Source: Clitopilus passeckerianus (lineage: Eukaryota; Basidiomycota; Agaricomycetes; Agaricales; Entolomataceae). From it: a stretch of DNA of 64,000 bases. Both the position numbers and the translations under genes were made by a program. Of the stretch, positions 10,166 to 64,000 are shown one piece after another. Within the stretch, counting starts at the first letter, position 1, and the number at the start of each line of letters is the position of its first letter. The stretch covers positions 328,251 to 392,250 of the forward strand of contig CALYLX010000077.1 in NCBI GenBank assembly GCA_944990035.1, in the 5' to 3' direction. The notes under the pieces were generated by a model. That model saw only the letters and a list, made by a program, of their open reading frames with translations. It made no database searches and was not told the origin of the DNA.

Positions 10166-13100
10166 CTACTCACCTAGTAAGAACATCTGTCCAATTGTTT
10201 GCTGAGGGTTATCTTTACGTTTGGGACAAGGATTCCCTTTCCACTTGCCGTCGCATGTGGTTGAGCGGCAAGTCAGGCATGAACGAGGTTTTCTTGCTGT
10301 GTTGCGTTTCTTCTTCGCTGGTTCGGTTTCATCGGCCGTGTTGTGCTCCTCGGTATCCCGTGCTCGCCTTTTACCCTTTGCTCGTTCACTTAATGCCAAA
10401 GAAGTTGAAGCACGGGCGGGACCATAGAATGCCACCGGATCAACGTGCTTGAACATCCGGGTGGTTTCCTGGCTTTCGTGCATCGAGAGCATTCGCGAGA
10501 CCTCCCAATCATTTGATGGGTCGATATATGTTTGTACTGAAGGTACCTTGCGACCTGTGGTGACCTGAAGATTGAGTGATTGAGCTTCTGTGACGTGAAT
10601 GGTGGGGATCGAGGTGGGGCTGGTTTTAAGAAGCGAGGCAAGTTCATCGACAGCATTCCTCTGCATTTCTACCGAGTTTTCTTCGTTTCGGAACTCCTTC
10701 CACGATTTGTAGTAGTTCTTCAATTGTTCAGGAAGCTAGAACCGAAATCAAGAGGCCATTCCATCTAATCCACAGCTAAAATGCACGAACCTTATAGAAG
10801 ATTGTCTTGCCATTAACGTGCTTTGACCACTCAGAGGCAAATACTACCCAGTTAGGCTGAGTTTTCGATACCAGGGGACCTTCCGTGCGAGAAACCAGCG
10901 TCCCAAAGAGTGCCCGTTCAGCGGATGTGTGAATTGGTAGGATAGCAACTTGAGTCTGCTGCAGCTTTGCAAGGTTCATATGATGAATGCTCTCCTCTCG
11001 AGCAAACTCAGATGAAAAAGGTTGCATATTCAAAGTATCCCGAGACGATTTCGAGAGGGGCAGGATACCAAAGGTCTCTGGAGAACGGATGAAGTCGTTT
11101 CCATTTACCCAGCCAAGCATTGAGGGCTCCGCAGAGTTTGGCGCAAAACCCAGGCTGGTAATATCAATGAGTTTCATTAGACGGTTGCGTGTCCAGACAT
11201 CAAATGACCCCTGATAGCGCTTCCTGTCCGATTGAATGTACCAACCTAGCCACTGTTCAGCTGGTGATATCGACTCGCGATGTAGGATAATAACATACCA
11301 CGAGGTTGTGTGTGAGTGTGAAATCTCGAATGAGATTCACAGCAAGACGAGGGGACGTGTTATAGGAACCATATCGTTTTGCGATGCTCTGGTGAACACC
11401 ACCTTCGATGCCGTTGGTTCCACGCATGCAGCGATACATGACGAGACCATTCCGGTCCTTCTTCTGCGCAACATAGAAATCGATTCCAACAGGATCTGAG
11501 TAATATCCAAGGCGGATATTCTCAAGAATGTTTGCTGCCTTCTCCCAGGATGCGTCATTGAATAACGGCTGGTTGGTCACGGCATCTACAAGGGGACCAT
11601 ACTTCTTGAAAACCTCTGACACTCTGTAGTGCAGTGCTTCAGCACCAGGAACATATCGGCGCACACGCTTCCAGATCCAATCTGGATGATAGCGGAGCAT
11701 TCGATCCCATGAAATGCCGCGTTTCCTCAATACTTCTTCAACAGCCTTTTGATCAGACGCATCGGGAACAAAAATAGCATCTCGTAACGCTCGAGCAAAC
11801 GGTCGTCGAATACCATGATGAATGGCAATCTTAAACATGTCCATAAGATGCCAAATATCTCCAAGAACGCGTGATCGGACTTCTGGGTCCTCCAGAAACG
11901 CTGGCTGAATCAGACTTGGAGAGCTGATCCCCAATTTCTCCTCAACATTTACCGATGAGGAGGCTGTATCTTCAGGAAGCTGCTCAGTTTCAGGGTCATA
12001 GGGGATAACAACGGGCCACCCTGGGCCCTCTGCTAACAATGGCATATCAGAGTCCAAGTCAGCTGACAGGGGCATATCTGCACCTGAGGCTCCGTTAGAC
12101 TGCACATAGGCACTCTCGTGGGGCACATAGGAGGGTGGAGGGGTGGAGGTAGATGTAGCAGGGGTTTGAGTTAGGGGAAGTTGATCATGAGGAATGATCT
12201 CGGTATCCTTGATGTGGCAGAGAAGACCGAATGGGAGAGCGGTACTCAAAGCGCTCAGAGGCGTCTCTGCTCGGCATTCGAGAAGCTCTCGTCGAATGAG
12301 ATAGCCAGACTGAATGATGTGCGTAATGTTAACAAGAACACGAGTTCCAGTCACGTTGACATTCTTGAACACTGCTGGGCGATCAGGTGCGATGAACCCA
12401 AAAGCGACAGCAGAACTGCGATCGCGGGAGAGGAGCTTGATGGGTGTCCCTGACGGGGTGGTAGGTGTTGCACGTTCTCGTGATGGTAGGGTAGAGAATG
12501 CATCTCGAAGCGCCCATGCAGCATAGGCATCAAGTTTGGCGTAGTCTTGCTGAGCATCGGTGAGGGCATCATTGTCCCAGGCTGTGCTGACCCGAATTGC
12601 CTCGTCTTTGGGAAGATACTGGTGGAGAATAGTTGCCACAAGGTCAGCAAGGCTGGTGTTGGATCTGCTGACGAGATTCCGATTGTGAGCGAGAGACCCA
12701 ATCTCAACTGCACCCACGAAAGGGAGTTCACCATCCTTGAGGTTGCAATCATGAAAGAGTTTCGTGAAGTCAGCCTTGATGTGAACTCCCCATTTTCGAA
12801 TGCGTGGGGACCTCAATAGCACCAGTAGGGCATGTGGCGGGTTTAGAAAGCCGTCCTGGGTCACAAATTTGGATAACTATTAGCACAGAAGTTAGACATC
12901 AGACCCAAATATAGATAAGAGACGAAAGAACGCACTCGAATGAGATATATACATCCTAAATATGCAATTGTAACCAGGGAAACACGCCCCTGAATACCCT
13001 CGCGGCGGTCAGTGGACCACTCCATATCCATACTGATATCAACCGACTGGTCAGTGGGAAGTCCAGAGAGTTGCTGCATGAACTCGTTGAGTCGTTGGTT

Positions 13101-15806
13101 GATAAGATAGGTGGTGTCAAGAATTGTCGTATCCCAATCGAGAGGGATGCTAAGAACCTGCAGTGAAGACTTGATAGGCACTGGGTGGACACCATGGCGT
13201 AGCGAAGGAAACATGCGCTCGAGCTCAGCCTTGTCGGCACGGACATTGTCGGTCATGATGGCCTCAATGTCCCCATGCCCATACAATTTCAATGATTCCG
13301 AAATCTTCGCCAGTGCGGGCATGAACTGGTCGTGGGCCTTGGTGGGTGTAAGTGTCATTTGGCGAACTTCTACGTATTCGTTGGTTGCTGTATGTAACGC
13401 GCCAAAAACGGGTTCTCCGTTCACTTTACCAAGGTGTTTTGGAACCTGTATCCAATGATCAGTCTGCCGAATATGACAATGATAGAGGAACTTGAGGATT
13501 CACCTTATGGCTATGGTCTATTGCTAACAAGCGTGCGGATAACATTGCCATCCGCTGATCGATCTCTGAGCTATGCTCCTCAATGATCATGTTGTACAGA
13601 TCACCGAAATAACGTCCTGAAGGGACATAGCCTGCATAACCGTCTCGATCATTCCAAGCACCAAAACGCTGGTGCTTGGCAAGCAAGGTTCCTGTGGCAG
13701 ATTTGAGGCGCATGTTCACCAGCTCATAATACTGGAGCTCGAGTTGCTCAAAGCCGCGGATGTGTAACGTGCGTATAAGGGCTGCGAAGGGGGTTGGTCC
13801 TAGACCTCGCTGGAATGAGGAGCGCAGGATCGCAAAGAGTCGGTCGGTGATGCCACTGCGACAAGTGAGGTGAAACTTGAACTGGCTGGAAAGAGCTGGG
13901 GGTAAGACATTGAGAACGGCAGGGGACCAGCTGAGGTACGTCTTCTTGCACTGCCCGCAAAAGTAGCGATAGCCTATAATATAGACTGTCTTGTCAATAT
14001 CAGCAACTCGCCGTGGAGCTTGTGGCCACCCGTGATGCTGAAGCATGACTTCCCCGCCTTTCGTGCTGTATGTCCTCCCCGCTTTCTTGCACTCGGGACA
14101 TGGGATTTTGCCAAGAACATGTGGGAGCCATACAAAGAATGATGGCGTGAAGAAATCTTTGGGTTCAATTTGATGTTTCGTGGCTGTCGTAAATAGTGGG
14201 TTCTTAGGCGGAATCGAGAAGTGACCGTCATCGTAGCAGGACGGTATACCGGATCGATTATTCGTCATCTCACTACGCAGGCGTTCACATAGTTCTCGAT
14301 AGATAGTGTCGAGCCAAGTAGGAATTGAGGCCCGCGGCGTCGAACGAGATCGCGAAGGACTGCTACTGCCAGGGGCAGCAGCAGTCAACGAAGACACTGC
14401 AGGCGAAGTTGCAGTGTCTTCATCATCGTCGAGTGCAGGTCCCACATCCTCATCATCAACATCTCGGTCCTCACCACATCCCATAAGCCTATCAATATCA
14501 TCCACCATCCCCGGACCGTCCTCCTCTAGCTCCTCCTCCTTGTCCTGCAGGCTCAGTAATGCCTCGAAGTCGATCGCGACATTGTTCGTCACATTTGGCG
14601 GTGGTAACCCAGGAGCGGCTGCTGCGCGTGAAGTCAGAAAAAACTGATACCGGTTTGTAGGTGTACGAGAACTTACCAGTTCTGGTTGTATCTCTGTTGT
14701 GGTCTGGACCAGGGGTGGTGCTTGACCTGCCGCCGACTTCCTCTAAGGATGCCGGTGAAGCTGATTGTTTGGTGGTGTAAGTAGCAAGCTGCTAGACAAG
14801 TAAAGCAGGCTCACCTTGAGTCCGGCTCTCTGTACCGTGTCCCGTTACATCATCAAATGTGCTGAGGTCTATATTGGAGGGTATCAATTAGAACTGAACG
14901 GAAAAGTAATATACATTGATTTTACTTGAGCTGAGTATTGCACTGAGCTGGCGAGAGGTATCTGGCGAGAGAAAATGCATCAGTCCCTGTGTTTAGATGA
15001 TCGGGACCTTCGTTACCTTGTTTCTCCGCATTGACCGTTTGGGAGTGTGCATCCGCTTCTTGATCGCGTGCTAGGAGTTCACCTGAGAGAGAATGAATGT
15101 TAGTTAGAGATCGCAAAGCATTGTTCTTCACTCACCTGAAGGCTCGAACTGATCCTCTTCGTTCACGCGCGTGAGAGGCAGTGTAGCACGGTCAGGTGCG
15201 AAAAAGCTGCAAATAGGGTGTATTAGTCCAAAACGAGCTTGAAATACCAGGGAAATGGGCAAACACACCCGTAATAGATGCCTGACGCTTCTCCGTGCTT
15301 GTTCTTTCCTGCTGGACCTCTGATGATTGTTGCTGTGAGGCAGAGGCTGCAGTCGGCGGTCCATCACCCTGCTGTGATGTGGTTCCCAGGCCTCTTACAT
15401 CGCGTGTGCCGGTGTTTGAGTTGGTGGGGGCGGCAACGGCAGTCTCAGATGGGAGAAGAGAGATAACTGGTTCTGGATCAACAAAGGGAAATGAGTTGTG
15501 CTGTATATACTGGGAGGAGCGGCACTTACCGTTGATAACGACCGGATTGACAGGACCCGCGTCGACAGCTAATTGACGTGTGCCGTGTGAGGTTCTCCAT
15601 GCACATGAACACGTTGTGGGACCAGGCTTACCTTTTGCAGCCAAATGAGAGGCCTCGGCAGGCGCCTGCTTCTGAGTTTTCTTTGGCCGCCCAACCAGCC
15701 TTTTTTTGCCTTCATTTCCAGTGTTGAGTTTGTTCTTTGACCCTTTCGGTCGACCGACAGGGCGCTTTGACGGATTTGGGGTGGGTTCCCCTTGAGGCGT
15801 AGCCAT
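10166..15806 (-). CDS. Transposase-like fusion: AT-hooks, DUF6729-like, DDE motifs, 3'-5' exonuclease, Cys-rich C-terminus
   Basis: A multi-exon gene with long exons (14592-13459, about 13424-12950, about 12880-11300, about 11250-10800, 10723-10166). The N-terminus has two AT-hooks (PVGRPKGSKNK and LVGRPKK). Next comes a Cys-rich block with CPECKK and CGQCKK that resembles DUF6729. Then LLAIDHSHK and IMTDN supply two Asp of a DDE-type RNase H fold. A DEDDy exonuclease follows: DMEW, KADFTKL, and YAKLD, close to RNase D/WRN. A later GTNGIEGGVHQ resembles the glutamate motif of MuDR-like transposases. The C-terminus has CLTC...C...C, a possible zinc knuckle. All reading frames stay open, so the gene may be intact. 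The last exon may extend a few codons beyond 10166. Name and superfamily of the element are unknown. Confidence 0.72.
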
Positions 15807-16600: not shown

Positions 16601-16672
16601 AGCAGCATGGCGCAGTGGAAGCGCGCAGGGCCCATAACCCTGAGGTCACTCGATCGAGACGAGTTGCTGCTA
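16601..16672 (+). tRNA. tRNA-iMet (CAT), initiator
   Basis: A 72-base intronless cloverleaf. The acceptor stem AGCAGCA (16601-16607) pairs perfectly with TGCTGCT (16665-16671). The anticodon CAT is at 16633-16635 inside the initiator-type sequence GGGCCCATAACCC. The T-arm reads CTCGATCGAGACGAG, with A where elongators have T54, as in eukaryotic initiators. The first base is A, as in fungal initiator tRNAs. Confidence 0.95.
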
Positions 16673-35603: not shown

Positions 35604-35688
35604 AGCCCACCGCGAGGGTCGAACTCGCAGCCTTCAGATCTCATCCTACGTAAAAGTCTGACGCTCTGGCCGATTGAGCTAGGCGGGC
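35604..35688 (-). tRNA. tRNA-Lys (TTT) with an 11-base intron
   Basis: The acceptor arms GCCCGCC and GGTGGGC pair with one wobble. The D-arm TAGCTCAATCGG and T-arm GCGAGTTCGACCCTCGC are standard. The anticodon TTT is at 35652-35654. An intron of about 11 bases follows base 37, inside the loop CTTTTA|intron|A, the canonical place for eukaryotic tRNA introns. Confidence 0.93.
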
Positions 35689-54731: not shown

Positions 54732-55520
54732 CTATCCCACCGTAAGAACCCAAGTCTCCCGATCCTGAGAGGATGCGTGAAGGCCCTTGAACATGAAATG
54801 CCCCATAAGAAAGTCCACTCGGCGCAGGCCTCTGCGCTTCTCGTCCTCGTATTCCCTGGCGTTGCGGATACGTCTGTATCGCTCTTCATATGCAATGGTA
54901 GCACGGCGTCTGTCCTTCTCGGTAGGGAGGGAATAGTAGTCGGACGACGAGCAATTCTTGCGCAAAGTGTGATAGACCTCCTCGAAAACATCCCGTACAG
55001 TGACGTAGGAGCGTTCATGAGCCCGGACGGAGACGACCCAGGGCAAATGAGGGCAAACGATGTTCATTCTAGGAGTCGGAGGTTCGGTAGCGGGCTCGCT
55101 AAGAGCCCGAGAAGACATGTTGTGAGCGTATGACGTGATGTGGGAAGGAGAGTCGCGTAGATCGACGCGAAGCAGAGGGGAGGATGACGCCCTCAGAGCG
55201 GAGTGGAGGCGCGTAGAAGGCGCGTAGTGATGGGACTTCGAGTGCGAGCCCTTCTGGGAAGGAGTGACATAGTAAGGTGATGGCCCCGGAAGTCCAGCGA
55301 AGCCTGATGGAGGGGTCAATAAACCTCCCGATGACGCTGGGGACCAGGATGAGGTGGTGAGCGCTGGAGGCGTGCTATGGACGTCAACCATAGACGCGAA
55401 ACGAACTTGCTTGATGTGCCCGGGCATTGCAGTGAGAGATATGCGATGGGGGATAATGTTCGAGGAGGCTTGGAGATGAAGAGACGGAGGAACATTACGC
55501 TTAAATACCCGTTTCAACAA
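54732..55520 (-). CDS. DUF6699-domain protein (copy B)
   Basis: A single-exon frame of 262 codons. The N-terminal half is Ser/Pro/His-rich and variable. The C-terminal domain begins near PTPRMNIVCPHLPW and has SYVTVRDVFEEVYHTLRKNC, then a basic helix (EDEKRRGLRRVDFLMGHFMFKGL), then TWVLTV at the end. This is the same order as in copies A and C. An internal Met at about residue 32 (MPGHIKQVRFASMVD) may be the true start, because KQVRFA resembles the opening of copy C (MKKVHFAAV). Function unknown. Confidence 0.82.
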   Translation of the reverse strand: MLKRVFKRNVPPSLHLQASSNIIPHRISLTAMPGHIKQVRFASMVDVHSTPPALTTSSWSPASSGGLLTPPSGFAGLPGPSPYYVTPSQKGSHSKSHHYAPSTRLHSALRASSSPLLRVDLRDSPSHITSYAHNMSSRALSEPATEPPTPRMNIVCPHLPWVVSVRAHERSYVTVRDVFEEVYHTLRKNCSSSDYYSLPTEKDRRRATIAYEERYRRIRNAREYEDEKRRGLRRVDFLMGHFMFKGLHASSQDRETWVLTVG

Positions 55521-56826
55521 TTCATGAACTGCCGAATGAGGGGACGAAGCATGACGAGTCGTATCGCCTCAGCCCCTTTCGCCAAAGGCCCAAAAACACA
55601 AGACTCGGGCCCCTGCCAACTGGGGTAACCGTGGCGCAGAGATAGAACTTGGTTTACTGCTCTGATTGGCTAGTCTCTCCACAGTCCGATAGTTTTTCCA
55701 CGGAAGTGATCTTCCGCTAAGAAGGGCCACTGATATAGCTGTAGATAATATGGCTGCAAGGGGTTCTGTCGAAGTGCAGATGGAAGGATTTGCTCTCCCC
55801 GGAGCAGATCTGGGCTTGAAAGTGAGACTTCGGAATGCGGAAGAGGCTAAAAGTGCCTGTAATCTAATCTATGGCCTGCTTCCTTCCACTGCCCTGGAAA
55901 TCTGGACCTCGGGAAGCGTAGCTTCCGAGACCACCTCTGCTTCTTGCACTGGTTCTGCCGGCGCCGCTCAACCGTCGCAGAAGAAACCAAGGGCGCGAAA
56001 AATGCAGAACGACTGCTCAAGAATGCAAAACGTGCGCATAGCCGGCGAAGCGGGAGGGAACTGCACAATGGGGAAAGAAAATGACGCGTACAGATTCGAT
56101 TTCAGAGCATTCTTCATATTTTGGCAAAGTTGCTGTGCGTGATGGGAGAAAATCACCTATACCTACATAGCCTTCCGTCGGCCGAGCGTCAATCAATTAG
56201 CAGCATCAATTAAGCTGAAAGGGCCCATTCTCCTTGAGGCTGGGGTCTAGCATGTGCGAGACAGAAAGGAGTAGGTGGCAACTCCCTAGTTAGTCTCTTC
56301 GTCAACCAATGAAAGCGATCTCCACGTGCATGAACTTGATTTCCACTATCCCGAGTGGTTCTCGGTGAATACACGGCTCAATGTCCTCGTATAGTCGCAT
56401 CAAAGCCACTCATTCCACGTCAGGTAAAGTATGATGGACGGATGTCCAAGCAGTAACTATGTCCCGGAAGACGGAAGAGTCTTGTCGAAGCTGAGAGAGA
56501 GGGTACTCGTTCACGATTTTAGCATTTTGGTAAGGGTATACATTCATACTTCGGTACTTTTCATATTATTACATACATTTTGTGTTTCTTTTTACTGGTA
56601 TACAACGAGGAGTCCATATGGGTGTCGGCAAGATATGAAATCTAATCTAATGCGAGGAAAATAGATGACGGCCGTCGGAGCCGCAAGCGATTAAGCATAA
56701 TTGACGAATAAGTAGGTAACTTTTGAGGTGACGTGGGGTGATAAGGGAATAATATACACTGCGAAGACCAGATAAGTAAAGTGACGAAGGGAACGGGTAG
56801 AATGACCTCACCGAGTAGATACGGTT
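55521..56826. other. Intergenic, nothing firmly recognised
   Basis: A plus-strand frame at 55750-56142 (130 codons) has no motif and is probably chance. Confidence 0.5.
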
Positions 56827-57477
56827 TTACGAGACGTTTAATTCCCAAACGTCCGAACCATGGAATGTGCCCGACAGCCCCAAGAAGCGATTTTTGCCCA
56901 TCAACATATCCACCATCCGGATACCCTGTCCCCGTTCGTAAGCCTCGCGGTCGCCACTTTCCCGGCATCGCTTGTAGTATGCCCTGTCGACCTGCTTGAC
57001 GACGTCCATGGATGGAAGACCCTTGTAGTCTTCTGGTAGGATGCATGTCCGCAGGTGGTCGTACACTGCTGCGAAGACGTCTGCGACCGTGATGTATCCA
57101 GGGTGGTGCGATGATGGGGTAACGACGATTGGTCGGGGGAAGTGTGAATTCACGATCGTGAGCCGTGCAAGACGAGGCTCAGTGGCGGGTTCGTTAAAGG
57201 TATCCGACGTGATTTGCTCCTCGAGCGAGGAGAATGGTTCCCAAGCCACGTCGTACTGCAAAGCAGGTGTTCCGAAGGGCGAGAATGCAAGGAGGAAGTG
57301 GATGTGCATCTCCTCATACGGTGGGCTGGGCACAGGGCTTATGCCGAGTTCATTTGGTAAGCGTGGGTAGACGACCGCTGGCGAAGTCGGGATTGAGGCC
57401 AACGATGTGGCAGGCGACGACTGGACGGAGGGCGGGATGTAAGTTGCGCTGACTGCTGCGAAGTGAACTTTTTTCAT
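56827..57477 (-). CDS. DUF6699-domain protein (copy C)
   Basis: A single-exon frame of 216 codons starting MKKVHFAAVSATYIPP. The domain spans about residues 85-216: LARLTIVNSHFPRPIVV, then YITVADVFAAVYDHLR, then VKQVDRAYYKRCRESGD, then GIRMVDMLMGKNRFLGL, ending DVWELNV. It is separated from copy B by 1.3 kb in the same direction, so B and C look like an old tandem duplicate. Function unknown. Confidence 0.85.
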   Translation of the reverse strand: MKKVHFAAVSATYIPPSVQSSPATSLASIPTSPAVVYPRLPNELGISPVPSPPYEEMHIHFLLAFSPFGTPALQYDVAWEPFSSLEEQITSDTFNEPATEPRLARLTIVNSHFPRPIVVTPSSHHPGYITVADVFAAVYDHLRTCILPEDYKGLPSMDVVKQVDRAYYKRCRESGDREAYERGQGIRMVDMLMGKNRFLGLSGTFHGSDVWELNVS

Positions 57478-60321
57478 GGTGGCGACGAAGACGTGGAAGA
57501 TGGGAGTTAGAGAGAGAAGTTGGGCGGGTTGTCAATTCGAGGTGTTGACATCTTTCGGATACTTGATGGGGTTAATCAATGTTGATTCGAGCAGGGCGGT
57601 GATCGTTCGAGCATTTCTCCCCTTTCGATGAGTCTGTTGCACCGCAGTACCACAGCTACCGACGGTGCCGTAATACTGCGTAAATGCTGTAAAGATATCA
57701 ATGAGCAAGCTGCAGTATGCATAGTTACGTGGTCGATAGCGTACAAACCTTGGGTGGATCGTATTCGGATGTTCCCTGTCAGAAACGGTAAGTACGTCCC
57801 AAACAATGTCAAGCTAGTAACGTGATACTTGCCGACTCCGCCAAAACGCCTCCGTCCCCCTAATGCGGAACGATTCCATGTGTAGATTTGAGCGGCGGCA
57901 CATGTGATGGTTCCAAAGTCGATGTGAAATTGTCGAGGTCAGATGGCGTGCTCGTAAGGCTGTTTTGAAGATAGGGGAGCACCACGATATGTCTTCCCTG
58001 CGTTGGAGATGGAGGTGTGATGACTTGGGAGAAATTCGATTGGACGTACCCAAAAGGCGATTCTCAACCATGACAACTTCGCATGGGGCTAAGCACCTGC
58101 CCTAGTCCGAACGTTGAGCGATTGGTGAGACGGTTGAGACGAGCGCAGGAGAGCATCGCGAGGAGGATCTGGATGGGATGGTGGCAAGGGTAAGCAAGGG
58201 CGCCCACGACGTTATGAGAGGGCGACTACCTAGAGTTCTTGTGGCAGTTGGATCTATATATCTTCGCGATAGTGGGATCGGTCGCGTGAACAACGCCTTT
58301 AATGGCGCTCGGCCCGAGCTCCGAAAGGGCTATTGATGCACAGGTCACAAAGGCGTCCAGAAGGTTGAACATTGGGGGCAGCTCGCTGAGAGGAGTAGTA
58401 TAATACTGGGGGGCAGAGAATGCCCAACAGCAAATGCCGCGTTAACTGACGCTCAAATCAGGGGGCGGCGCATCTTCAACCACGACTGGTTAACACCCGA
58501 GTTGTGTGGGTACAAGAAATGTTTTTGACAGGAAAAAGCTGAGAGTTTCTTGAGAGGATGTAATACAGTGTTAAAGCCGTCTGCTGGAGGTAATCGAGAA
58601 GAACTTGAAGGTGAAAGGGAAGGGAGGAACGTTTGAACATGCGAGAATCGCCAGGCTGGACTTGATTGATGGCGCGCTTATGTAACGCCTCATGTTTCTG
58701 CTCATTGCAGCGCGTGATGATGGCGCCAGGTTGAATGACGACCTTCATCTGCTTTCAGCTGCCTAAATTCAGGATCACGCTATACCACAAGCTGCTTTCC
58801 TCGACTACCTAGTAACGCCTGGAATCTGATCTCTGGAACCATCATCGTCGCTCCTGAAGCCGCACTGCAAATCGGGGCTGAAGAATCATCTGAGCTCGTG
58901 GAAGGGTGACGCCTAGGCTACTGGATCCCCTGTTAGGTTCCTGAGTAGCTGCGAGAACATGGTAAGCTACAGCTTGCTCTAGTCAAACCAACAAGGTGGA
59001 TGTTGACCGGGTTTCGCAGCTAACGGATCTGAACTTGTCTTCCTTGAAGATTGGGACAATCAGGCTCGGAAAGCGATATTTGACATTCGGTGCGTGCATA
59101 ACCCTGCTGTCAGATCTCATACTTACACATATCTACTTGCAGACGCTTGCGAATTCGCACCCGTTCTTGCGGCGTTGGATGGCTGGTCTTCGCATTCGCA
59201 CTAGTGGAATGTCCTCTCGCTCTCCTTGAAGATGACTCTATTGCCGGAATCGTCATGGCGTTGGGGCCTGTCATCCCCCGTTCTCGCCTCGCTCCTCATC
59301 ATGCTTGCCCTACCGAACCCTCCCCACAGATCGTCCAAAGACCTTAGTACCAACAAAAGAACGCGTGCTCCTCGTACTCCCGATACCCAGACGATACCGA
59401 ATGGGCACGGAAGATCAAGATGGTGGTGACGGCATGTCAACTCTGGCGTTGAGCATCAAGTCACAACAAATTTACCCTTACGGACGGAGGAGAAAGGCGA
59501 AGTACGTACGCTTTGATGTCGTAAACGAGCCACCCAAGTCGAAAAACGTAAGTATCTCATGCTCAAATGTACGATAATATTGTGGACTCACATTTCATGC
59601 TAGTCTCGCCGCATATGGCCAAGAGCAAGAATAGCATACAACGCACGGACAGCCAAAGAATGAGGAGTATCGCGAGTTTGCGACGGTCTCGTATGTGACA
59701 GGTGCTGTGTGTTGTTGTTGGTACGTGAAAACCGACTTCCTTTTGACTGTTCTGACTCGTTACCCCAGGCATTCCAAAACCATGAGTAGTTCGAACTTCA
59801 CGGCGCCACGGAGGCTCCAGAGTGGAAGCAGTCACTCCAGCGCCAGTTCTCTATGATGGATAATTTACTATGGTGCCTTTGCAACACAAGGCCAACGACG
59901 TTCAAGCGGAGGACCACCGTAGCTCAACTTGTCATCACCTATATCGCCAGATATAGTCCCGAACGGGCTTCACAACCTTCCTAGTCGTCATGTACGTTGG
60001 TATCCCGCTGGAAACAATACGATAATCTTGGTTCGACGAAAACATGTGCACCTTTACGGCAGATGCCTCCCTGTTTCCTCTGAGTTCGGCGTCGGTGACG
60101 AGTTAATCAGGACTCAATCCGCAACCGAGCGATTTAGACGCCTTCTTGTAACCGTTTCATAGCACCACCGTTCACAGCGATGGCAAGCTCTGAGGCGGAG
60201 ATTCTTCGCAAAGTTGCTTCTGGCGGCGTTTGCTCCTGATGGAGTCACGGAAGCGAGCCACTTGCTATGCTGCTGTATATAACGGCGAGGCGGCATGGAT
60301 TCGAAAGGAGATGCTAGGGAA
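57478..60321. other. Subtelomere-side stretch without a recognised gene
   Basis: Only scattered short frames. Two frames at 59030-59100 and 59147-59347 can be spliced into one reading, but the product matches nothing known to me. Confidence 0.45.
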
Positions 60322-61404
60322 ATGCTGAAGTTCCTCGATCTACTAGTAGTCTCCCTAGCTATTGCTATTTTTCTTTTGACATTCCCAGCAGAACCCGCTT
60401 TCGGCCCATGTGTATGTGTGGTATGTGTCGCACAAAGCTAAAGCACCTCATACTAATGGACCTTCTAGGGGCTTCAACGAGTATGCCAGTACTTCATGGG
60501 TCCAAAGGTATTATCAGATATGGTCGAGCGGCATTCCCATATTAATTACGGTGCCGATGGTCTCTAAAACTTCAACAGAGTCGTTGCTACCCTTCAAGCC
60601 AATGATATTCGATTTATTGTGGCATTGTACGTTTCTGCTACATTCTGTGGCCCATGTATCGAGTCTTTCACCCTGCTAGAACTAACAACTAGGCCGACTA
60701 TGGGGGAATGGGCGTCAGCGTCAACCTGATTCTCAACCGGGCCAACCACGACCCCTCCTATACCGACGAATGTCTGAGCACCGCCTGGAAGAACTACATT
60801 AAGGTTTTCGTTGAACAGCTACACCAACTACCCGATAATCATAGCTTGGGAACCCTCAAACTACGCCGGGGTGCAGGGGAAAGCACTGGGTAAGTCAAGT
60901 TCCAACAATCCATTGTCAAGCCAGTCACTCACGTTGACATCAGCGATACGACTGGTACATGCGCGCCACCTATCTTGGCGGCCTGGGCTGAAGAAATCTC
61001 CGTCTACAACGAGTCTATCGACCCCAGCAATCTCGCTGCCCTCGGAAACGAACGTTTCTACAACCAGCCCGGTAATCTCTCTTATCCCTATCAAGGCCCG
61101 GAGGGAATTGACTTTGAGGCTAGCTTGGCTATACCCGGGCTCGAATTGGCACCGTGCTTGTGAGTTATCTGAATTCGTGATACGTCCGGAGCCTGACGTT
61201 GTTAAAAGCAGGTGTACCCTGGAGGCATGGTCACGAATAACTATACGGACTAAGGATCCATTGGATCGCGGATCATGCTGCCTCAAGAAAGAAGGCTAAC
61301 AATCCTGTTGTCCGGGAAGAATACGGCAAAACCAAGGACCAGCTTGCATGTACCGCCTGGCTTAACGAGATGGTTTCCTCTAGGTTAACTGGTGATCTCA
61401 TATG
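60322..61404 (+). pseudogene. Broken GH5 subfamily 7 endo-beta-1,4-mannanase
   Basis: Family blocks are clear: YYQIWSSG, INYGADGL, NFNRVVATLQANDIRFIVAL, ADYGGMGVSVNLI, a block with NHDPSYTDE, IIIAWE, SIDPSNLAALGNERFYN, LSYPYQGPEGIDFEA, WIADHAASRKKANNPVVREEYG. The last EEYG carries the catalytic nucleophile position. The gene is dead: a TAA at 60565-60567 interrupts GADGL/NFNRV, a TAG at 60690-60692 replaces the Trp of TNNWADYGG, and frameshifts are needed near 60540, near 60815 and near 61250. A signal-peptide-like start (MLKFLDLLVVSLAIAIFLL) at 60322 is followed within 80 bases by GFNEYAST, so most N-terminal exons are deleted. The C-terminal domain after 61404 is also missing. These enzymes cut plant mannan outside the cell. 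Confidence 0.8.
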
Positions 61405-61911
61405 GTACGTTTCTGAATGTTTCTGGAAGACTTCTTCACAGATCCTTGGATTTATCCCAGAGCAGAGGGCTACGTTCTTCTTGCCGCTGTTCTTAAGACT
61501 CGAACGTGACATTATTTCTTTTGAACCATTGATAGTATTTGTATAAATACGTAGTCTTAATAGGATTATACGTCCACCTCTCTTAGGTTGAGTAAAGTGA
61601 CGATGGAATTGTCGATGTAAAGGCGACCTGACCAGATCTGACAGGAGAAAGGGTACATTAGAGAATATAGTTAGAACCATTTAAAGGAAGTGTTCACCGC
61701 ATTAGTTGATCACCAAAGGTTCCCAGTGAATCACTTCTTTCGCAATACGCAATACGCGGGTAACTTGTTGGAATCATCGGGGTGGCGCATTCCCCAAGGT
61801 TCCGGCCTCCAACCCGCCAGTTCCGACGCCGGAAACAGTCGAAGATTACGCCATCAGTCGACTTCCATGGGCAGCAGCTAGGCAGACCGCTTTGGAAGGA
61901 TCCTGCCCAAG
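61405..61911. other. Subtelomeric spacer
   Basis: No gene recognised between the mannanase relic and the first telomeric block. Confidence 0.5.
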
Positions 61912-61925
61912 TTTAGGGTTTAGGG
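61912..61925 (+). repeat. Interstitial telomeric block, 2 x TTTAGGG
   Basis: Two perfect units, same orientation as the large array. It ends the segment that carries the hammerhead ribozyme. Confidence 0.9.
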
Positions 61926-62008
61926 TAGTAGAGTTTCACGACCTTGCTGGAAGGCCGGAGCGAAGCGTAGGTCTGGAAGCTTGGGAGTAGGCGTGTAAGG
62001 CAGATGCG

Positions 62009-62091
62009 ATGTCTGGAAAGTCCCAGAGGTTGATGAAACCACCTGGCCAGAACTTTCGCTGTTTATATACAGCTCATCAGTCCGTCGACAT
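62009..62091 (-). ncRNA. Type I hammerhead ribozyme
   Basis: The minus strand carries the exact core CTGATGA (62074-62080) and GAAA (62054-62057). Between them is stem II: 62069-62073 pairs with 62058-62062 (GCTGT/ACAGC, five perfect pairs), loop 62063-62068. Helix III: 62047-62053 pairs with 62020-62026 (seven pairs, four of them G-U), with the enclosed hairpin CCAG...CTGG and GGTT...AACC as an alternative extension. Helix I: 62081-62083 with 62015-62017, an internal loop (62084-62086 against 62014), then 62087-62091 with 62009-62013. The NUH cleavage triplet is CUU (62020-62018), predicted cut after 62018. Self-cleavage is inferred. Such ribozymes are known in Penelope-like retroelements and others. 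Confidence 0.82.
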
Positions 62092-62740
62092 GTGTTTACC
62101 TGACACCACACGGTGCGCCGTCGTGCAACCGTGCGGGACTCCTTATCATGTGTTATACTTACTTAGCTTGGCGCGCTATTTTCGTTGTTGACTTGCTAAA
62201 GTCCGAGACGCGATGGAACGGCGAAACGTTAACATGACGAAATGCGAACATAACGAGATGTAACGAAACAGCTGAACTCGGGTCCTCGTGAGGCCACGAT
62301 CGATTCTGCACCTTCTAGACATTTCCCCTGTGGCACGGAGAAACCAGTGGAGCGGTGAGTTCGATCATCTCGACGAGTGGATGTAGCGGAACTGCCCAAG
62401 GCGCATTGCATCATCCATACTAACGGCTATCTTGACGATATCCATCAAAACTACTCGTTAGCGATCAAGCGTTGGACTGAAGTAATCAAATCCAGTGTTA
62501 GTGTTCGGTTGTTACCTAGACGCGTGCGTAAACGGATGTCAACTAGACATCGTCGTGTCATACTCGACGCATTTGTATGGTATGTTGAGGTCTAAAGCCT
62601 GCCGAGTCGTTCCCCTTATGGGGGGATCAGTCCGGAGTTCGCGATAGTCCTTACCGTTTTAGCCGGTTTAGGTTTAGCTAACGGTGAACACAAGTAAGTA
62701 ATAGTTCATCTACCAGAGAATCTCGATGAACGACGTACGG

Positions 62741-62754
62741 TTTAGGGTTTAGGG
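62741..62754 (+). repeat. Interstitial telomeric block, 2 x TTTAGGG
   Basis: Two perfect units, same size and orientation as the block at 61912. A degenerate neighbour, GGTTTAGGTTTAG, lies at about 62664-62676. Confidence 0.9.
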
Positions 62755-63239
62755 TAATGCGGGGAGTACTCTCCGTCCCTAAGTTGAATCCTGCGATGCC
62801 CAATATCGCTTGCAGAGGTGTAGCGACGCTCCCAATAAAGATGTCGTCACAATTTCCTGCATTACCATACGTTGATAAGTTGCCATAGTCTGCATAAGAG
62901 GTATATCCTTTCATACTAACTATTTCTTGTCACCCAATTAGGCCCTTATATCTGTTGCTACGGGAGGGAATGAGATGTCGACTAAACGTGCACAGATCTC
63001 ACCGTAGGAATTAGGGATCTTCGCTCGGGGAACGCCCGAGTACCAGAATCTAAACGCACAGATTTTAAGCGATGCGTCGAGGAACGAGATGACGACTTAA
63101 TCGTGAATCAGATCTGCCCGACGATTATCAGCTAAAACGCTATTAAGCGTGCTGATCGACGTTTACCCGAGACTGTAGCAGTTAACTCGGTACCTGGCGG
63201 GTAACAATAGTCTAATTAGACTACTTAGCGTATCATTGA
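62755..63239. other. Subtelomeric segment
   Basis: No gene seen. It lies between the second telomeric block and the truncated frame at 63240 and may be the 3' part of the same element. Confidence 0.4.
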
Positions 63240-63791
63240 TCAAATATTATGATGGACATATTCCAGATCACCTGGCTCTGGACGGTTCCCTTGTCGGTAC
63301 TGAGTCGCAGGCTGGGTATTCACCGTTTCAACTTCGGGTTCCTCTGGAACTATCTCATCAATATGGTTTTCCCGTAATAGATTTTGATCAATGCGAGAGA
63401 TTACTTGCTTTTTCCACGACGAAGATACGTCAAACAAGTTTCGTGTTCGTTTTTTCGAAACGAGCACGCGGCGGTCTAGGATATCAAGTTTCCGGATATC
63501 CGGGAGTGACACATAGTGCTTGCTTTTAGCAAAGAACTGGTCTCGACATTCGAGGCCAGATTCCCAATCCTCTGGTTCGGGGTACGCGCTGCCCAGTTTA
63601 CCTGAGTCGTACGCTTCCATGTACTCTTTCCAGTGACCATACATTAATCTCTCGACTTCTTTAGCGTTAAAGAAATCCCACGCACTGTTGAATTCGGATT
63701 TGAGAACGAGCAGCCCATGTGGTTCCTCTTCGTCTTTCCTCAAGGTGAGATGTTGTTTCCACCGCTCATCGATGTTATTCTTAATCCAAGC
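63240..63791 (-). CDS. Unrecognised open frame, 5'-truncated by the telomeric array
   Basis: The frame is open on the minus strand from the array edge at 63791 to a stop at 63240, about 180 codons, with no ATG near the array. It has a coding-like character: WIKNNIDERWKQHL, then SAWDFFNAKEVERLMYGHWKEYM, then SAYPEPEDWESG, then VLVSKKRTRNLFDVSSSWKK, then an acidic C-terminal tail. No known domain is recognised. Because the frame begins exactly at the TTTAGGG array, the 5' end of a longer gene has been lost or replaced. The reading direction, from telomere towards the interior, is that of telomere-attached retroelements; this is inference. Confidence 0.45.
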   Translation of the reverse strand, partial: AWIKNNIDERWKQHLTLRKDEEEPHGLLVLKSEFNSAWDFFNAKEVERLMYGHWKEYMEAYDSGKLGSAYPEPEDWESGLECRDQFFAKSKHYVSLPDIRKLDILDRRVLVSKKRTRNLFDVSSSWKKQVISRIDQNLLRENHIDEIVPEEPEVETVNTQPATQYRQGNRPEPGDLEYVHHNI

Positions 63792-63935
63792 TTAGGGTTT
63801 AGGGTTTAGGGTTTAGGGTTTAGGGTTTAGGGTTTAGGGTTTAGGGTTTAGGGTTTAGGGTTTAGGGTTTAGGGTTTAGGGTTTAGGGTTTAGGGTTTAG
63901 GGTTTAGGGTTTAGGTTTAGGGTTTAGGGTTTAGG
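63792..63935 (+). repeat. Telomeric array (TTTAGGG)n, about 20 units
   Basis: 144 bases of TTTAGGG, with two shortened TTTAGG units near the right end. It is followed by at least 65 bases of non-telomeric DNA, so it is not the physical end of the sequence. Confidence 0.97.
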
Positions 63936-64000
63936 TGCTGATGAGTTCTCGTAACAGGACGCAATTAACCTTAGCAATACGTAACTGAACGAAGTACAAC

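Follow-up and report, generated by a model that had tools for sequence, protein, structure and literature searches.

The window analysed here, the terminal 64,000 nt of contig C77 of Clitopilus passeckerianus (CALYLX010000077.1, positions 328,251 to 392,250), contains a retroelement copy whose 5' part has been cut off by a telomere array (Table 1). A predicted type I hammerhead ribozyme lies near the 3' end of this copy, on the same strand as its reverse transcriptase (RT) reading frame. A previous sequence-only reading of the window had placed the ribozyme in a subtelomeric segment framed by telomeric blocks, which we found at 61912–61925 and 62741–62754. It had not seen that the hammerhead segment forms the 3' terminus of a telomere-attached retroelement that codes for an RT. 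The genome searched comprises 64.8 Mb in 160 contigs; below, C-numbers are contigs, L-numbers individual loci and q-numbers positions along the element query. For a host protein encoded in the window, the nearest named relatives come from Lyophyllum, Tricholomella and Hypsizygus, in line with an Agaricales host. The last approximately 65 bases of the window (63936–64000) are non-genomic, and we take them to be Nanopore native-barcode adapter. An exact copy of the central 20 of these bases is found at 42 contig ends, in every case no more than 60 bases from the end, and the reversed control gave no matches. A CTGATGA at the far end of the window was considered as a second hammerhead and rejected, as it sits in this adapter sequence.

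Table 1. Features of the window and of related loci
Feature	Position	Strand	Basis or comment
5'-truncated retroelement copy	61926..63791	minus	3' end left, truncated 5' end right
RT reading frame, C-terminal part	63240..63791	minus	cut by telomere
Predicted type I hammerhead ribozyme	62009..62091	minus (sense)	core, hand-built helices, 24 copies
Hammerhead core CUGAUGA	62074..62080	minus	direct sequence match
Stem-loop II, 5 bp, 6-nt loop	62058..62073	minus	hand-built pairing and fold prediction
Core GAAA, final A inside helix III	62054..62057	minus	hand-built pairing
Helix III, 8 bp, end closed by hairpin loop	62019..62054	minus	hand-built pairing
3' tail past ribozyme, 83 nt	61926..62008	minus	'long' form; 'short' forms approximately 60 nt less
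Telomeric stub TTTAGGGTTTAGGG	61912..61925	plus	joined to element 3' end
Internal telomeric tract (TTTAGGG)2	62741..62754	plus	(CCCTAAA)2 in sense
Terminal telomere array	63792..63935	plus	approximately 20 TTTAGGG
Two adjoining DUF6699 reading frames	54732-55568, 56827-57531	minus	
DUF6729 reading frame	13459-14742	minus	
Exonuclease-like frame (DNA_pol_A_exo1)	11257-12876		near DUF6729 frame
Two tRNA genes	16601-16672, 35604-35688		
TTAATAAGGAGCGTAGGTATCGGCC sequence loci	C109:75882-75953 (L032); C143:1297145-1297163 (L083)		

The minus strand carries exact CTGATGA and GAAA core sequences, and stem II pairs exactly (GCTGT/ACAGC, 62073–62069 with 62062–62058) around the loop at 62068–62063. 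By hand-built pairing, helix III joins 62054–62047 to 62019–62026 and runs on into a hairpin. Helix I, similarly built, has an inner part of 3 bp (GGA/UCC, 62083–62081 with 62017–62015) and an outer part of 5 bp (AUGUC/GACAU, 62091–62087 with 62013–62009), with an internal loop (62086–62084 opposite 62014) in addition to the 6-nt loop II. The cleavage triplet is CUU, which conforms to NUH, and U17 falls at 62018, so that the predicted cut is 62018/62017. In this fold, three helices surround the core with NUH at the cut and helix I as the open end, which is the type I layout. The core and perfect five-base stem II of the sequence-only reading can thus be read directly from the minus strand, and its helices I and III, CUU triplet, helix I internal loop and cut position at 62018 were all reproduced. 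The CUGAUGA and GAAA core is also identical in all 24 motif-bearing copies described below. The minus strand of 62009–62091 is likely to be a real hammerhead, with catalysis predicted.

A loose core (CTGATGA-N4..28-GAAA) occurs once in the window, where 1.69 occurrences are expected from window shuffles, and 1,487 times in the genome, compared with 617 for the reversed pattern. The loose core by itself is therefore not rare and is weak evidence. The full descriptor, which is looser than the actual motif, combined the core with at least 5 bp in helix II, at least 5 in helix III, at least 3 in helix I and NUH. Random sequence matched in composition (first-order Markov, 569.6 Mb) gave a single match, a chance rate of approximately 1.1e-4 per 64 kb or 0.11 per genome; relaxing helices II and III to at least 4 bp gave 10 matches in the same sequence. 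Chance rarity had previously been asserted for the core plus stem II alone, and it holds for the descriptor that includes helices I and III, the only form tested.

The 816 bp unit at 61925–62740 runs on into the RT frame in longer copies, and the RT frame carries RYIDD. A retrozyme was therefore rejected: the unit extends into this frame, and there is no non-coding unit between hammerhead-bearing terminal repeats. A model of the relative P0026 matched telomerase best and group II intron RTs second. When seven relatives were compared with Pfam, RVT_1 was found in five, over the cut-off in one, and in neither P0014 nor P0096. A simple motif for the GIY-YIG endonuclease was absent from the best 120 of 364 relatives and from a 699 aa frame, and no GIY-YIG Pfam domain was among those listed for the relatives, the N-terminus being missing from the copies here. 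A PDB sequence search returned no RT relative (best match a ubiquitin hydrolase, E 0.04), all six matches to the more distant RT P0103 were copies already known, and none of six pattern matches to related RT loci in viral contigs was confirmed. The sequence features indicate that the element is likely a Penelope-like element (PLE), a retrotransposon with a telomerase-like RT and no endonuclease found. Telomere-associated endonuclease-deficient PLEs of fungi, 'Coprina', were reportedly described by Gladyshev and Arkhipova in 2007; by that description they resemble this element in host group, telomere attachment and an RT in which no GIY-YIG was found. Among the known endonuclease-deficient PLEs that attach to telomeres, the element is likely to be a basidiomycete representative. 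Cervera and De la Pena (2014) reportedly describe the PLE variants of fungi and protists as stable monomers, and here too a type I hammerhead is found in a likely PLE.

A genome search with 61925–62740 found 24 copies, each of approximately 370 nt or more; none lies more than 4 kb from a contig end, and all are oriented toward that end. Further copies near TTTAGGG, which the sequence-only reading had proposed looking for, therefore exist, and every one that carries the motif is near a contig end and telomere repeats, bearing out the subtelomeric location. Two pattern searches agreed with this set and added a 27-nt insertion at C143. With this and a second mini-insertion, at C146, the insertions that include the element 3' end number 26 and occupy 23 of the 42 adapter-marked contig ends; 24 of the 26 carry the hammerhead near the tail. 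Of the 19 element-free adapter-marked ends, eight were read for approximately 180–200 bases each and none contained the element; C60 has telomere repeats only.

The insertions have their 3' boundary at either of two tail ends, constant to approximately 5 nt and beside a short TTTAGGG-like stub, while the 5' boundary is variable and abuts a telomere array or a further copy. Only a single orientation was seen, and pairs of copies are head-to-tail at C141 and C138. Proximal flanks differ, and some consist of another telomere-attached piece. The tail insert of approximately 60 nt (61926–61984) is present in 19 insertions and missing from seven, and the long and short tails are alternative 3' forms of the RNA of a single element. 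This insert repeats a CTTCCAGAC motif that resembles the ribozyme substrate strand. L023 (C136) and L024 (C59), on different flanks, are both truncated at q676 on the 5' side and both have an AGGGG joint. If recombination had carried a subtelomeric repeat from end to end, with the ribozyme as a passenger, this would account for copies that are approximately 98–100% alike and for the one truncation point in C59 and C136. However, the differing proximal flanks, a 3' boundary fixed on the telomere stub with variable distal boundaries, and the continuation of the unit into the RT frame led us to reject this explanation as highly improbable.

Attachment is by the 3' end in 26 of 27 pieces (the 26 insertions and a fragment at C26). 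The sole exception, the C26 fragment (q508–634), joins a telomere stub by an internal point. On the sense strand, the ribozyme precedes the C-rich tail by approximately 24 nt (short tail) or 83 nt (long tail). The terminal tail is predicted to be unpaired (0.99) and the internal (CCCTAAA)2 tract partly paired (0.38–0.49). The internal tract matches the overhang equally well and was used in 0/27 attachments, so telomere complementarity by itself seems not to suffice for attachment. All 11 copies that reach the internal tract continue through it. The copies at C146, C110 and C36 stop exactly inside it (chance 0.0003–0.003 under uniform ends, calculated post hoc), as if the tract had seeded new telomeres.

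In the mechanism we propose, the C-rich 3' tail of the RNA would pair with the G-rich overhang of the chromosome, RT would extend the chromosome 3' end in a target-primed reaction for which an endonuclease is not needed, and telomerase would cap the inserted product. If a TTTAGGG 3' end primes the cDNA, the minus strand is RNA sense, its 3' end lying on the proximal side and its truncated 5' end on the distal side, and the predicted strand and polarity are those of the arrangement seen. The ribozyme fold would help to make the telomere-complementary tail of the RNA available to the chromosome end. We consider it probable that the tail of a likely PLE here contains a predicted type I hammerhead whose fold presents the telomere-complementary tail and sometimes cuts it.

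In 24 of the 26 insertions the sequence extends across the cut site, so insertion usually has uncut RNA as its template. Cutting in cis would separate the RT-coding body from the telomere-pairing tail, and would in this way lower productive insertion. The data fit a tail-presenting fold, in which cutting would be either an off-switch or a side reaction that occurs now and then. One 38-nt insertion, at C146 (TCCAGACATC...CTCTACTA in sense), stops exactly at the first base past the predicted cut, and is followed by CCCAAA and then by the next copy. The chance of an end at this position is 0.9–2.6% under uniform ends, depending on the range assumed (calculated post hoc). A genome search allowing up to two mismatches found this cut-site mini-insertion only. 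In a companion search, the best 100 of 350 places included every one of the 32 exact matches, of which 24 lie in element pieces and the other eight away from adapter-marked ends. The C146 insertion may be a trace of self-cutting in a living cell. More tentatively, and on balance we are doubtful of it, the ribozyme could be an attachment switch, with uncut RNA as template and cutting severing the tail; the 38 nt would then be a reverse-transcribed cleavage product, preserving in the genome the activity of a PLE hammerhead in a living cell.

Cleavage might instead be obligatory, generating the 5' ends of read-through or tandem transcripts or the monomers of circular RNA, as in retrozymes and pLTR Penelope elements. 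The head-to-tail tandems at C141 and C138 and the one insertion that starts at the 5' end of the cut product are in keeping with this. It is nevertheless quite improbable, as the ribozyme is uncut in the 24 insertions, the 5' end coincides with the cut in no copy above 38 nt, and the end of the 5' cleavage product serves as the attachment point in 0/27 pieces.

Variable sites are fewer in the ribozyme (2/83) than in two upstream regions (21/210 and 41/357; Fisher p 0.030 and 0.012), and q86–158 has none (0/73). Site counts are preferred here to per-cell rates (ribozyme 2/1,909 vs 146/13,008), which recount shared changes. The low variability lends modest support to a hammerhead.

Several results weigh against a hammerhead that presents the tail and sometimes cuts it. 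Equally low variability was found in 48/734 windows, and the 60-nt tail insert also has only one variable site. The end at the predicted cut is one event only, the C143 mini-insertion ends elsewhere, and the absence of pieces attached by the 5' cleavage product applies here too. No hammerhead was returned by an Rfam scan of the window at the gathering score, or at E≤10 over 58000–64000, and the model match that the sequence-only reading had offered as a check was thus not obtained above threshold. With the 161 nt alone, RF00008 scored 16.8 bits against a gathering score of 48.5, and RF00163 had no match in the window, in 58000–64000 or in the 161-nt query. The Rfam score is a detection threshold and not part of the definition of a hammerhead. 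A further Rfam hammerhead search also found none, but is uninformative, as 14 control genomes were equally blank. Finally, the minimum free energy fold (−24.8 kcal/mol, compared with −21.4 for the hammerhead) is one long hairpin in which the core GAAA is paired with UUUC. Free-energy folds ignore the non-canonical hammerhead core; this predicted hairpin is a genuine competitor.

An alternative is a conserved tail hairpin for RT binding that is hammerhead-like and does not cut, with a coincidental core match. In its favour, the most stable fold is the long hairpin, Rfam is silent, approximately 0.11 chance descriptors are expected per genome in any case, and the 24 insertions derive from uncut RNA. 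We regard it as unlikely, because the core, stem II, helices III and I and NUH fit together on the sense strand, one insertion ends exactly at the predicted cut, and placement near the 3' end is as recounted for Terminons (PMC6431247).

Terminons/Athena are described as endonuclease-deficient PLEs at bdelloid rotifer telomeres, in which the fold is thought to expose the C-rich repeats immediately downstream (PMC6431247). As in that description, the fungal element is an endonuclease-deficient RT element with its 3' end on telomere repeats, most copies are 5'-truncated by telomere repeats, some are head-to-tail, and the RNA has, close to the hammerhead, a 3'-terminal stretch of reverse-complement telomere sequence (PMC6431247). 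It differs in its host, a basidiomycete with TTTAGGG telomeres, and in the distance from ribozyme to C-rich tail, which the Terminon ribozyme immediately precedes. The fungal ribozyme also has a full helix III and the element an internal (CCCTAAA)2 tract. Terminons are giant units with accessory ORFs; no giant copy was seen here, all fungal copies found being truncated. The hammerheads of PLEs and Terminons are characterised as minimal, lacking helix III or loop contact (PMC7761336), whereas the one here has helix III.

PAc, the Anolis Penelope element, is likewise a PLE with a hammerhead, and unprocessed RNA is given as its main insertion substrate in vitro, in line with uncut RNA as the usual template for the fungal insertions (PMC11167929). 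Unlike the fungal element, PAc has a GIY-YIG endonuclease and a ribozyme at the ORF start, and for PAc no RNA-seq reads starting or ending at the cut site are reported (PMC11167929). Retrozymes are also retroelements with a hammerhead, and the 816 bp unit is near the 600–1000 nt given for them; in contrast, the fungal unit shows no LTRs and belongs to the tail of an element that codes for an RT, and 24/24 copies were found near contig ends (PMC6155905).

A literature search recognised no published description of this fungal case, though we do not claim its absence from print. The 24/26 uncut insertions, the 38-nt insertion ending at the cut and the internal tract that is never an attachment point are possibly new. 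With near-identical copies on 23 of 42 adapter-marked ends, each end point can be taken to register where a template stopped. In long-read fungal genomes, cutting by PLE hammerheads in cells, and its effect on insertion for better or worse, becomes something that can be counted.

A second short sequence, TTAATAAGGAGCGTAGGTATCGGCC..., was seen in three places flanked by telomere stubs, with differing truncation points, and likely represents a second telomere-attaching element family. Elsewhere in the window, the tRNA gene at 35604–35688 has an extra 12 nt at the anticodon arm, likely an intron.
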